DNA of 64,000 bases from Prochlorococcus sp. AG-418-G18 (GTDB lineage: Bacteria; Cyanobacteriota; Cyanobacteriia; PCC-6307; Cyanobiaceae): the NCBI GenBank assembly GCA_003214215.1, contig QCLX01000003.1, positions 21,360 through 85,359 on the forward strand. Reading direction: 5' to 3'. Position 1 is the first letter of the stretch. Every line of letters starts with the position of its first letter. Positions 50,668-55,435 of the stretch are shown one piece after another. The notes under the pieces were generated by a model that was not told the DNA's origin, made no database searches, and was given only the letters and a program-made list of their open reading frames with translations. Both the position numbers and the translations under genes were made by a program.

Positions 50668-51414
50668 ATGGCTCTATCTAGTCAAACTAAAGAAACAATT
50701 CTTGTCGCAGATGATGAGGCAAGTATTAGAAGAATTCTTGAGACACGCCTCTCCATGATTGGGTACAAAGTTGTAACTGCATGTGATGGTAAAGAAGCAC
50801 TAAAGTTATTTAAAGATTATGAGCCTGATTTAGTAGTACTTGACGTCATGATGCCAAAGTTAGATGGCTATGGAGTTTGTCAAGAATTAAGGAAAGATTC
50901 TGATGTCCCGATTGTTATGTTAACTGCATTGGGAGACGTTGCAGATAGGATAACAGGTTTAGAATTAGGGGCCGATGATTATGTTGTTAAACCATTTAGT
51001 CCAAAGGAATTAGAAGCTAGAATTAGGTGTGTTCTTAGAAGAATAGATAAAGAACAAATTCCTGGAATGCCTAATTCAGGACTAATTTTGGTTACAGATA
51101 TTAAAATTGATACAAACCGAAGGCAAGTTTTTAAAAGTGATGAGAGAATTAGATTAACTGGTATGGAATTTAGTCTCTTAGAGCTTTTGGTTAGTAGGTC
51201 AGGTGAGCCATTTAGTAGAGGAGAGATTTTAAAAGAGGTTTGGGGATATACCCCCGAGAGACATGTAGATACAAGAGTAGTCGACGTTCATATATCAAGA
51301 TTAAGATCAAAATTAGAGGCTGATCCAGCGAATCCTGAATTGATATTAACAGCTAGGGGTACAGGATATCTTTTCCAAAGGATTGTTGATATCGCCCCTT
51401 TTGATGGTAAATAA
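50668..51414 (+). CDS. rpaB: RpaB-type OmpR-family response regulator
   Basis: This 248-aa response regulator controls high-light and photosynthesis genes through HLR1 elements. The receiver domain has VADDEASIRRILETRLSMIG at the start, phosphoacceptor Asp59 in VVLDVMMPKLDGYG, and VVKPFSPKELEARIRCVLRR. The winged helix carries RLTGMEFSLLELLVSRSGE and RHVDTRVVDVHISRLRSKLE. The very conserved N-terminal block identifies RpaB. Its stop is immediately followed by the plsX ATG with no gap, so it heads a lipid-synthesis operon. Confidence 0.94.
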   Translation: MALSSQTKETILVADDEASIRRILETRLSMIGYKVVTACDGKEALKLFKDYEPDLVVLDVMMPKLDGYGVCQELRKDSDVPIVMLTALGDVADRITGLELGADDYVVKPFSPKELEARIRCVLRRIDKEQIPGMPNSGLILVTDIKIDTNRRQVFKSDERIRLTGMEFSLLELLVSRSGEPFSRGEILKEVWGYTPERHVDTRVVDVHISRLRSKLEADPANPELILTARGTGYLFQRIVDIAPFDGK

Positions 51415-52833
51415 ATGGGGAAAGAAAATTTAAATAAAGTTAATAAGCCTAGAGCTATCAGAAGATTAGTTATTTGGTATAAAAGAAATTCTGCTGTCAC
51501 TTCAATTGTAGATACTGCTGCTAGTTCTGCAGTAACGGCAGGTAATGTAGCTGGTAACGTAGTTTCTGGTGCTGGTTCTGTCGTAAGTACAGCTAGTAAT
51601 GTTGCCAGTAATGTTGCAGGTAATGTAGCTGGTAACGTAGTTTCAAGTGCTGAATCTGTTGTGAATACTGCTAGCAGTGTAGTTTCAAATGCTAGTTCCT
51701 TGGCTAAAAATACATTACAGCCATTAGTTTTTGACCCATTAAAAAGATTACAAAATAGCGATAATATTTTAGATAAGAGTGAGGATACAAAATCTAAAAG
51801 AATTTGGATCGCAGTTGATGGTATGGGAGGAGATCATGCTCCTGGGCCAATTCTCGAAGGTTGCCTTGACGCAATAAGTAGATTTCCAATAAACATAAAG
51901 TTTGTTGGCAAAATTGAAAAGGTTAAAAATATAGCGGAAAAATGCGGTTTAGCAGAATTATTAGAAAAAGAAGTAAATAATAATCGTCTTGAATTAATTG
52001 ATAGTGGAGATCCTATCGGTATGAATGAAGAAGCTACTGCTGTTAGAAAAAGGAAAAATGCGAGCATAAATGTAGCAATGGATTTAGTAAGAAATAGTAA
52101 GGCTCAAGCTGTTTACTCAGCTGGTAATTCCGGAGCTATGATGGCTTCTGCAATATTTAGAATTGGTAGATTGAAAGGGATTGAACGACCAGCTATAGGT
52201 GCATTATTTCCAACAAGGGACCAAACTCGCCCTGTATTGGTTTTAGATGTTGGTGCAAATACTGATTGTAAACCTTCATATTTGCATCAGTTTGCACTTC
52301 TGGGCAATATTTATGCAAAAGATGTTTTACAGGTGAAAAAACCAAGAATTGGTCTTTTAAATATCGGAGAAGAAGAATGCAAAGGTAATGATTTATCTCT
52401 AAAAACATTTGCATTACTCTCTAGTGAAAAAAGTTTTGATTTTGGAGGAAATTGTGAAGGTAGAGATGTTTTATCGGGTAGTTTTGATGTGGTGGTATGT
52501 GATGGATTTACGGGTAATATACTATTGAAATTTCTTGAGTCTGTGGGAGGTGTGTTATTAGATATTTTGAGATCGGAGCTTCCAAGAGGGAGAAGGGGGA
52601 AAGTTGGTTCGGCATTTTTAAAAAGTAATTTACTCAGAATTAAAAAAAGGTTGGATCATGCCGAACATGGTGGGGCCTTATTACTTGGGGTAAATGGCAT
52701 TTGTGTGATTGGTCATGGAAGCAGTAAGTCTTTATCTGTAGTTAGCGCTCTTCGCTTGGCTCACTCGGCAGTCAATCATGACGTGATGGAAAATTTAAAT
52801 CAGCTTCAAAAGCTTCAAGTTTTAAATTCATAA
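51415..52833 (+). CDS. plsX: phosphate acyltransferase PlsX with repetitive N-terminal extension
   Basis: PlsX makes acyl-phosphate from acyl-ACP at the start of phospholipid synthesis. The catalytic part begins around residue 129 (RIWIAVDGMGGDHAPGPIL) and runs to the end, with standard motifs such as AVYSAGNSGAMMASAIF and DGFTGNILLK. Residues 1-27 are basic. Residues 30-100 are an Ala/Val/Ser/Asn/Gly repeat (VAGNVVSGAG, VASNVAGNVAGNVVSS and similar) expected to form a long amphipathic helix. Ordinary PlsX is about 330-350 aa. The extension may tether the enzyme to membrane. It abuts rpaB, with fabH following after 53 bp. Confidence 0.93.
   Translation: MGKENLNKVNKPRAIRRLVIWYKRNSAVTSIVDTAASSAVTAGNVAGNVVSGAGSVVSTASNVASNVAGNVAGNVVSSAESVVNTASSVVSNASSLAKNTLQPLVFDPLKRLQNSDNILDKSEDTKSKRIWIAVDGMGGDHAPGPILEGCLDAISRFPINIKFVGKIEKVKNIAEKCGLAELLEKEVNNNRLELIDSGDPIGMNEEATAVRKRKNASINVAMDLVRNSKAQAVYSAGNSGAMMASAIFRIGRLKGIERPAIGALFPTRDQTRPVLVLDVGANTDCKPSYLHQFALLGNIYAKDVLQVKKPRIGLLNIGEEECKGNDLSLKTFALLSSEKSFDFGGNCEGRDVLSGSFDVVVCDGFTGNILLKFLESVGGVLLDILRSELPRGRRGKVGSAFLKSNLLRIKKRLDHAEHGGALLLGVNGICVIGHGSSKSLSVVSALRLAHSAVNHDVMENLNQLQKLQVLNS
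51538..51644 (+). repeat. 29-bp direct repeat inside plsX
   Basis: The same 29-bp sequence beginning GCAGGTAATGTAGCTGG occurs at 51538-51566 and 51616-51644, 78 bp (26 codons) apart and in the same reading frame. Shorter related AGTAATGTTGC-type units lie between. This indicates an in-frame tandem duplication within the amphipathic N-terminal extension. Confidence 0.85.
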
Positions 52834-52886
52834 AACATATTTTGTCAAATTTATGTTTGACTTATATAAGTAACTAAGAAATTCTT

Positions 52887-53894
52887 TTGGAAGGAATAAA
52901 GTTTAATCAGATTGGTGTCTCATTTAAAGGAAGTGGAAGTTATGTACCCGATCAAATACTTACTAATCAAAAAATTAGTCAAAAGGTAGATACAAGTGAT
53001 GAATGGATAAAATCTAGAACTGGCATTTCTGAGAGAAGAATTTCTAGCAGTGGAGATAATGTCGCTGAGATGGGTTATAAGGCAGCATTAACTGCCATTG
53101 AAATGGCAGATTGGGACATTAAAACAATTGATTTGATTATTTTAGCTACTTCTACTCCGCATGATTTATTTGGTTCAGCTCCATCTATTCAAGCTAAATT
53201 GGGGGCCGATAATGCCGTAGCTTTTGATTTAACTGCTGCATGTAGTGGTTTTTTATTCGCTTTAATAACAGCCTCACAATTTTTAAAAAGTGGTAGTTTT
53301 AAAAGGGCTATTATTATTGGAGCGGATCAATTATCAAGTTTTGTTGATTGGAATGATAGAAGAAGCTGTATTCTCTTTGGCGATGGTGCGGGTGCATTAG
53401 CAATTGAAGCAACAAATGAATTTGATAATTTAATTGGTTTTGATATGAGAACTGATGGGCAAAGGGGTTCTTTTCTTAATCTTCCATCAAAAAATAATGA
53501 GGATTCAATAATTGATAATATTGATTTTCTAAGTGGAGGTTTTGCTCCAATTGAGATGAATGGGCAGGAAGTTTATAAATTTGCAGTTAGAGAAGTTCCC
53601 ATAATCCTTGACAAGTTGTTTAGAAAAACAAACTATAGTTCTGATGAAGTTGATTGGCTTGTATTGCATCAAGCTAATCAAAGAATATTAGATTCTGTAG
53701 GGGACAGGTTAAAAATTCCCAGAGAAAAAATTCTTAGCAATTTAGAAAAATATGGTAATACTTCAGCCGCAACAATTCCACTAATGATGGATCAGGCCAT
53801 TAGAAATAATAGAATTAAACAAAATGATATTATTGCATCAAGTGGATTTGGTGCTGGGCTAAGTTGGGGGGCAGCCCTCATTAAATGGGGTTAA
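52887..53894 (+). CDS. fabH: beta-ketoacyl-ACP synthase III
   Basis: FabH condenses acetyl-CoA with malonyl-ACP to initiate fatty-acid synthesis. The 335-aa sequence has the catalytic Cys119 in DLTAACSGFLFAL, His in WLVLHQANQRI near 265, and Asn in LEKYGNTSAATIP near 295. The N-terminal DTSDEWIKSRTGISERR is typical. The start is TTG at 52887 (LEGIKFNQIG), with no better ATG nearby. It is 53 bp after plsX and 18 bp before fabD, in the rpaB-plsX-fabH-fabD-plsC series. Confidence 0.95.
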   Translation: MEGIKFNQIGVSFKGSGSYVPDQILTNQKISQKVDTSDEWIKSRTGISERRISSSGDNVAEMGYKAALTAIEMADWDIKTIDLIILATSTPHDLFGSAPSIQAKLGADNAVAFDLTAACSGFLFALITASQFLKSGSFKRAIIIGADQLSSFVDWNDRRSCILFGDGAGALAIEATNEFDNLIGFDMRTDGQRGSFLNLPSKNNEDSIIDNIDFLSGGFAPIEMNGQEVYKFAVREVPIILDKLFRKTNYSSDEVDWLVLHQANQRILDSVGDRLKIPREKILSNLEKYGNTSAATIPLMMDQAIRNNRIKQNDIIASSGFGAGLSWGAALIKWG

Positions 53895-53912
53895 AAACTT
53901 AATAGGAAAATT

Positions 53913-54809
53913 ATGACAGTTGCATGGGTATTCCCCGGACAGGGGTCGCAAAAAATTGGAATGGTAAAAAAAATTGAAGATTTGCCAAATACTAAGAAGA
54001 GGTTTAATTATGCTTCTGAGATATTTGATAGAAATTTATTTGAAATTTGTGAGTTAAATTCTGAACCAACAGATCCTTTGGATGATTTGAATAATACAAG
54101 AAATACACAAATTTGTCTTTTTTTAGTTGAATCAGTTTTATTAGATGCTTTAAAGGAAAATAATTTCAAACCAAATTATGTCGCTGGACATAGTCTTGGA
54201 GAAATTACAGCACTATATTGTGCGGATGTTTTTTCATTCGAAGATTGTGTGTCACTTATAAAAGAGAGATCTCAATTAATGATCAATGCTGGGAAAGGAT
54301 CTATGGCAGCAGTAATTGGTTTTGATAGAAATCAACTTGATTTATTAGTTCAAAAAACTGATGATATTGTAATTGCAAATGATAATAGCTCTTCCCAAGT
54401 TGTCTTATCAGGTTCTCATGAAGCATTAGATAAGTTATCGAGAGAAATTTCTTGTAAAAGATTCTTGAAATTAAATGTTTCAGGTGCGTTTCATTCACCA
54501 TTTATGAATGAGCCTTCAGTAAAATTTTCTGAATATTTAAAACAGATTCAATTTAAAAATCCTTCTTTCCCAGTCATAAGTAATTGTGAACCTTCACTTT
54601 GTAGCGATCCAAATGAGCTTAAAATTAGATTGGAAAATCAAATGTGTAATGGAGTGAGGTGGAGAGAAACTATGGATTTAATGGCAAAAGATAGTGATCT
54701 TCATATTGTTGAAATTGGTCCATCAAATGTACTTAGCGGTTTAGGAAAAAGACATTTGAAGGATGTAAAAATTTCTCAAGTTTCATCTTCTGATCAAATA
54801 CTTTATTAA
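53913..54809 (+). CDS. fabD: malonyl-CoA:ACP transacylase
   Basis: FabD charges ACP with malonyl groups for fatty-acid elongation. The 298-aa protein shows VAWVFPGQGSQKIGM at the N-terminus, and the catalytic Ser94 in VAGHSLGEITALYCA. The active-site His is in LNVSGAFHSPFMN near residue 192. IEIGPSNVLSGL-type sequence follows near the end. All essential residues are present. It is 18 bp after fabH and 5 bp before plsC. Confidence 0.95.
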   Translation: MTVAWVFPGQGSQKIGMVKKIEDLPNTKKRFNYASEIFDRNLFEICELNSEPTDPLDDLNNTRNTQICLFLVESVLLDALKENNFKPNYVAGHSLGEITALYCADVFSFEDCVSLIKERSQLMINAGKGSMAAVIGFDRNQLDLLVQKTDDIVIANDNSSSQVVLSGSHEALDKLSREISCKRFLKLNVSGAFHSPFMNEPSVKFSEYLKQIQFKNPSFPVISNCEPSLCSDPNELKIRLENQMCNGVRWRETMDLMAKDSDLHIVEIGPSNVLSGLGKRHLKDVKISQVSSSDQILY

Positions 54810-54814
54810 TTCCA

Positions 54815-55435
54815 ATGACAAAAGATATTTTTCAAAAATTAATATATCAATTAGTTAGCAAACTTTTTGTATTACCCATTTATAAATTTGTATTTAAAGG
54901 TCATTTAATAGGTCGAGAGAATATTCCTCAAAAAGATTCTTTTATAATGGTTTCCAATCATGGTTCTTTACTTGATCCTCCTTTGTTAGGCCATGCTCTT
55001 GGACGCAATATTTCTTTTATGGCCAAGGCAGAGCTTTTTAAAATACCTTTCCTTGGCTTCATTATTAAGGCTTGTGGAGCATATCCTGTAAAAAGGGGAA
55101 TTGCTGATAAAAATACTATTAAAACAGCATGTAAAAAATTATCCAATAACAATTGTATTGGAATTTTTATTGACGGCACTCGTCAAAAAAATGGGAGAGT
55201 TAATAAGCCAAAACAAGGCGCTGCATTATTAGCTTTTAAAAATCAAAAATTATTATTACCTGTTGCAATAGTTAATTCACATAAACTCATAAGATTTAAA
55301 TTCTGCATTCCTTTCTTTTCAAAAATACTTATTAAAGTGGGTAAACCTGTTCAACCTCCACTAAGCTCATCAAGAGATGATCTGAATTCTTTAACTAAGT
55401 ACCTTCAAAATAATATTAATAGTTTGATTGGATAA
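54815..55435 (+). CDS. plsC: 1-acyl-sn-glycerol-3-phosphate acyltransferase (PlsC-like)
   Basis: This 206-aa membrane-associated acyltransferase completes phosphatidic acid synthesis. The catalytic HX4D motif is in MVSNHGSLLDPPLLG near residue 49. The second motif appears as FIDGTRQKNGRVNKPKQGAA near 117, a variant of FPEGTR. A hydrophobic N-terminal segment (SKLFVLPIYKFVFKG) probably binds the membrane. It completes the lipid-initiation operon, 5 bp after fabD, and is convergent with tsaB. Confidence 0.9.
   Translation: MTKDIFQKLIYQLVSKLFVLPIYKFVFKGHLIGRENIPQKDSFIMVSNHGSLLDPPLLGHALGRNISFMAKAELFKIPFLGFIIKACGAYPVKRGIADKNTIKTACKKLSNNNCIGIFIDGTRQKNGRVNKPKQGAALLAFKNQKLLLPVAIVNSHKLIRFKFCIPFFSKILIKVGKPVQPPLSSSRDDLNSLTKYLQNNINSLIG

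Follow-up and report, generated by a model that had tools for sequence, protein, structure and literature searches.

The window, the 64-kb stretch of DNA that was analysed, contains a plsX gene; among named genomes, those nearest to its source are Prochlorococcus. PlsX commits fatty acids to membrane lipids. The original prediction described a repeat-like extension in front of a standard PlsX domain, and such an extension is present: 131 residues containing repeats of Val, Ala, Ser, Asn and Gly lie N-terminal to the domain. The range proposed for it, 51415-51790, was nearly right, except that its DNA ends at about 51807. The genes and the domain concerned are as follows.

50668..51414, + strand: response regulator gene, presumably rpaB-like, upstream of plsX (open reading frame)
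51415..52833, + strand: plsX, phosphate acyltransferase with an N-terminal extension, 472 aa (open reading frame; Pfam and NCBIfam matches)
51808..52830, + strand: PlsX catalytic domain, residues 132-472 (profile matches and structure model)

Residues 132-459 match the PlsX family of Pfam (PF02504, E 3.4e-103, 345.6 bits against a cutoff of 29.1), and the domain is a member of NCBIfam TIGR00182 (365.7 bits, curated cutoff 243.4). The whole 472-residue protein is a member of NCBIfam NF010419/PRK13845 (882.8 bits, cutoff 729), the start of which is matched by the extension alone with E 7.8e-44.

The ATG of plsX abuts the stop codon of the rpaB-like gene, an arrangement found in all 48 Prochlorococcus sequences. 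In 41 sequences of the Prochlorococcus family, L048, L060 and L064 among them, plsX was assigned a start that lies within the rpaB-like gene, giving a 20-base overlap at the end of the latter; this suggests that translation of the two genes may be coupled. The start codon in the overlap cases listed, such as these three, is TTG. Positions 50668-55435 hold a row of genes on one strand, rpaB-like, plsX, fabH-like, fabD-like and plsC-like (the last three named from the sequence only), that makes up a lipid-synthesis cluster headed by a response regulator.

Constraint on the parts of the extension

The extension is divided into the following parts, and a DNA repeat lies within it.

51415..51450, + strand: variable N tail, residues 1-12, dN/dS 0.23
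51451..51513, + strand: head, residues 13-33, RAIRRLVIWYKRNSAVTSIVD, dN/dS 0.015, the most constrained part
51514..51708, + strand: amphipathic repeat of variable length, residues 34-98, with an A/V apolar face, an S/N/T/G polar face and a period of 100 degrees
51709..51753, + strand: second conserved segment, residues 99-113, NTLQPLVFDPLKRLQ, dN/dS 0.029
51754..51798, + strand: variable linker, residues 114-128, dN/dS 0.33
51538..51602, + strand: DNA repeat copy 1, 65 nt, opening with a 29-nt exact match
51616..51680, + strand: DNA repeat copy 2, 65 nt, 85% identical to copy 1 at a spacing of 78

The variable stretch of A, V, S, N and G is thus flanked by two motifs that hardly vary and that the original prediction did not mention, the head (RAIRRLVIWYKRN) and the LQPLVFDPLKRLQ segment. 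When dN/dS was computed by the NG86 method for all pairs of 48 Prochlorococcus sequences, the repeat (0.081) came near the catalytic domain (0.061), and both the head and the second segment were lower than that domain. Across 105 aligned sequences that carry the extension, the most frequent residue at a position accounts on average for 92% of sequences in the second segment (residues 101-113) and 90% in the head (residues 13-33), followed by 85% in the catalytic domain, 62% in the repeat and 43% in the linker; R16, R17, L18, V19, W21, Y22, R24, V28, V32 and A35 are conserved in every sequence.

Some strains have in-frame GTG and TTG codons inside the extension, the one observation in favour of a mis-called start with the true one near residue 129, as the original prediction had considered. 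The chance of this is negligible: L009, L039 and L121 have no ATG, GTG or TTG from the first codon of the extension to the catalytic domain, the upstream frame is strongly conserved, and the head is the segment with the lowest dN/dS. Because dN/dS is low and some relatives offer no internal start codon, the extension is a real, translated and selected part of PlsX.

Repeat length and helical periodicity

The 29-nt exact repeat GCAGGTAATGTAGCTGGTAACGTAGTTTC, in frame and with a period of 78, was found as predicted, and it lies inside the 65-nt pair. The expectation that length would vary between strains was also borne out: the extension measures 107-149 aa (mostly 127 or 131) in the 48 Prochlorococcus sequences and changes in steps of 4 and 18 aa. 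The distance from the head to the second segment takes 16 distinct lengths, from 24 to 93 residues, and these preserve the phase of the helix (R=0.80 at 100 degrees, with the optimum at 99); none of 20,000 random length sets was as coherent, lengths made of shared repeat units not being independent in this comparison. The DNA repeats and the stepwise lengths are what a neutral, low-complexity expansion by repeat slippage would produce, but such an expansion is highly improbable given the dN/dS of the repeat, the preservation of helical phase across lineages, and the lack of any phase-breaking or frame-breaking allele among the aligned sequences. Slippage likely supplies the length changes and selection filters them.

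The predicted amphipathic pattern was also seen in diverged relatives. The hydrophobicity spectrum of the repeat has its maximum at 100 degrees, and when angles from 60 to 180 degrees were scanned in 33 diverged representatives (one per cluster, with catalytic domains less than 85% identical), all 33 peaked at 99-103 degrees per residue, each with P<0.01 when compared with shuffled versions of itself. On the helical wheel, Ala and Val make up 91% and 97% of the two bins at the apolar centre; up to 60 degrees from that centre, Asn, Asp and Glu account for 0%, Gly for 2% and Ser for 6%. The polar side is mostly S, N, T and G, and D, E, K and R together make up about 4% of the repeat stretch. For coherent helical hydrophobicity, the repeat supplies the top six of the 2,823 60-residue windows in the 64 kb. 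Its moment over 18-residue windows is about 0.3, bulky hydrophobic residues are nearly absent, and its Heliquest-type D score is about 0.3. The usual lipid-binding cut of this score is 0.68; the repeat falls below it and the basic head above it.

Insertion of the extension as a transmembrane or hairpin helix is very unlikely. Helices of A, V, G and S with small-xxx-small spacing do occur in membranes, as is generally known, but the best 19-residue Kyte-Doolittle mean here is 0.99 (windows every 3 residues) against the usual 1.6, and Asn, Ser and Thr fill the full polar side. In the AlphaFold model of the full protein, pLDDT is mostly over 80-90 in the catalytic domain and 28-44 in the extension, which has no fixed fold; with the extension modelled alone, helices are predicted at residues 11-48 and 67-96 with pLDDT mostly 50-75. 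Both models lean to helix without a fixed domain, as would be expected of a conditionally folded helix.

The head does not continue this pattern, since its residues 13-27 are out of phase with the apolar face of the repeat. The invariant V28, V32 and A35, the conserved A39, A42 and A46, and also V50 lie on that face; the head therefore seems to be an element of its own, and the helix of the repeat appears to begin near residue 28. An out-of-phase head is one reason to consider that the extension is a protein-protein module, in which a partner would be bound by the head together with the LQPLVFDPLKRLQ segment (PlsY, acyl carrier protein and other enzymes of lipid synthesis being candidates), with the repeat as a helical spacer or packed on another helix. 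The dN/dS values of the head and the second segment, when set against that of the catalytic domain, likewise indicate constraint tighter than pure lipid binding requires, and the head is retained in relatives that have no repeat. A heptad coiled coil was rejected, as it needs 102.9 degrees, whereas the spectrum of long repeats has its maximum at 99.5 degrees and has dropped by 102-104 (to 0.05 at 104); short repeats peak at 100.5 degrees, at poorer resolution. This counts against a standard coiled coil but not against other contacts, and a protein-protein module is possible, though hardly the expected outcome.

Distribution among cyanobacteria and the stem tip

Sampling covered 37 genera of the Prochlorococcus family, in which every sequence with a complete upstream region has some extension, the repeat not being in all of them. 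L100, L110, L126, L128, L129 and L132 keep the head and have no repeat; they form one clade (support 100/100) that lost or never had it, so the repeat is not essential to the PlsX enzyme. The seven sequences of genus g7 (L137-L143) lack the repeat and carry an arginine-rich RRRAIRRIRRIRRLSR where the head would be. The PlsX branch of this genus is long (1.55), indicating fast evolution. A form similar to the RRRAIRRIRRIRRLSR type, with a broken frame, occurs in G130 of genus g30, whose plsX (L144) is split: matches to catalytic-query residues 1-71 and 78-334 stand in separate frames about 65 bases apart, possibly through a frameshift or an assembly error. An otherwise intact plsX match at G033:C14:15349-16371 contains a single TAA. 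The tree labels "headonly" (L065, L115) and "none" (L058, at a contig edge) are labelling artefacts.

Among 17 plsX genes of cyanobacteria outside the family that were read whole, none has the extension, and the start lies a few residues before the domain (L077 has at most a short unrelated lead); other members of the class have open frames of 341-396 aa, which by length alone agree with its absence. In a phylum-wide set, the extension profile matched all 13 genomes of the family and gave, in 181 genomes outside it, one weak and chance-like match (G314, E 0.0084, with a stop inside). Relatives were found in named genomes in 381 cases, and among the matches listed (80) all are from Prochlorococcus or uncultured Synechococcaceae. 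The extension is therefore restricted to a lineage as originally supposed, but that lineage is the whole Prochlorococcus family rather than a handful of strains; the long form already has a curated NCBI subfamily model. No kin of the extension were found elsewhere in the genome, and solved structures gave chance matches only (E 1.5 or worse). Matches to PHROGs tape-measure proteins (E 4e-4) and to Pfam Serine_rich (E 0.014) were read as compositional. Phage (11) and plasmid (54) records also match, none covering 80% of the query, and among the matches listed these run from about residue 96 onward.

A further difference between the family and other cyanobacteria lies in the enzyme itself.

Residues 388-402 of the plsX product, within the catalytic domain: stem tip, ELPRGRRGKVGSAFL

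The PlsX of B. subtilis is a peripheral membrane enzyme placed by a nine-residue amphipathic peptide at the stem tip, a peptide that the authors of that work describe as poorly conserved between genera (PMC6702220). The tip reads mostly ELPQG[L/I/W]xGQIG in cyanobacteria outside the family and ELPRGRRGK within it, with the outsider L077 intermediate (ELPRGMRGK). Nearly every family member has Arg at the contact point instead of a hydrophobic residue, one having Tyr, and this change occurred in the same lineage as the extension. The coincidence suggests that the extension may compensate for the changed tip; as a single correlated change on one branch, it is suggestive rather than proof.

Possible role and comparison with known systems

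The preferred reading, to which a probability of about 0.6 is given, is that the extension combines a distinct basic-aromatic head with a membrane-binding helix that lies on the surface and folds conditionally. In most of the Prochlorococcus family, the module would have three parts: the basic-aromatic head, the long helix and the second conserved segment. The helix would probably be unfolded in water and fold on the membrane with its Ala/Val stripe inward and its Ser, Asn, Thr and Gly residues outward; the second segment, whose prolines are predicted to terminate it, would end the helix, and a flexible linker would lead to the enzyme. Spread over 24-93 residues and doubled in the PlsX dimer, numerous weak contacts would keep the enzyme on the membrane, perhaps at sites of loose lipid packing, and acyl-phosphate would thereby be passed to the membrane enzyme PlsY. 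In this scheme, we infer the contact with the membrane, the folding upon it and the role of the head.

A membrane tether is plausible, but the tether to lipid droplets that was first suggested is unsupported, as PlsX works at the membrane. Several points weigh against the membrane-binding reading. The repeat is nearly free of bulky hydrophobic residues and scores below the lipid-binding cut, and one clade does without it. Many family members have a repeat of only 24-57 residues, and two repeats of perilipin 4 (66 aa) are cytosolic in human cells (PMC5889406). Other cyanobacterial PlsX reaches membranes without an extension, that of Synechocystis having been mapped to thylakoids (PMC6878006). 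Since these enzymes lack the extension, it is probably unneeded for membrane contact as such and more likely tunes the place, strength or regulation of that contact.

Cyanobacterial membranes consist mainly of galactolipids, and the helix of CTP:phosphocholine cytidylyltransferase is charged and lipid-sensing. The uncharged Ala/Val helix of adjustable length might be a bacterial counterpart of the latter in action, sensing lipid packing so as to switch PlsX on galactolipid-rich membranes or place it there, and might have replaced the stem-tip peptide in this family, although this more specific proposal is rather unlikely. The uncharged polar face of ALPS motifs (amphipathic lipid packing sensors) suits membranes with few charged lipids (PMC4569407), and that of the repeat would suit such poorly charged membranes.

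The protein form is already catalogued as NF010419/PRK13845, and its amphipathic pattern with conserved brackets appears to be undescribed; a literature search combining PlsX, cyanobacteria and N-terminal extension, carried out mostly outside subscription journals, found no paper. A family of very abundant marine cyanobacteria has added a strongly conserved, membrane-type module to PlsX, and the tip known for membrane contact shows a corresponding change; the placing of lipid synthesis in membranes dominated by galactolipids and sulfolipid thus becomes testable. The natural series of helix lengths, which includes repeat-less relatives, would be useful for the study of weak amphipathic helices.

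Several known systems invite comparison. NF010419/PRK13845 is a 440-aa model for a putative glycerol-3-phosphate acyltransferase PlsX, and its name is silent on the function of the extension. In sequence character, the repeat resembles perilipin 4 or ALPS motifs. ALPS motifs carry bulky hydrophobic residues, whereas the apolar centre of the repeat is Ala/Val. Their likeness to the repeat lies in the few charges and the Gly/Ser/Thr polar face (PMC4569407). The perilipin 4 repeat is likewise long, repetitive, weakly hydrophobic, rich in V, A and T, without bulky residues and low in moment (PMC5889406, PMC8064757); the moment of the PlsX repeat is comparable with the values for perilipin 4 (0.257) and perilipin 3 (0.35), and the helix of perilipin 4, which binds through many weak contacts, is not folded in solution (PMC5889406). 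However, the helix of perilipin 4 is of the 3-11 type, built of 33-mers that include charged residues, and the protein coats lipid droplets, whereas the PlsX extension has units of 4, 7, 11 and 18, is almost uncharged and is fused to an enzyme. The kinship to perilipins or LEA proteins once proposed was not upheld, as no such family matched the plsX product in Pfam or NCBIfam scans, and no homology to perilipin 4 was found. The PlsX of B. subtilis (6A1K, PMC6702220) is the same enzyme and is also placed at the membrane by an amphipathic element, but that element consists of nine residues at a mid-protein stem tip, whereas here it would be N-terminal and up to 93 residues long, and the stem tip is basic. 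CTP:phosphocholine cytidylyltransferase, a different enzyme and alike by description, is a lipid-synthesis enzyme with an 11-mer amphipathic helix (PMC5889406).
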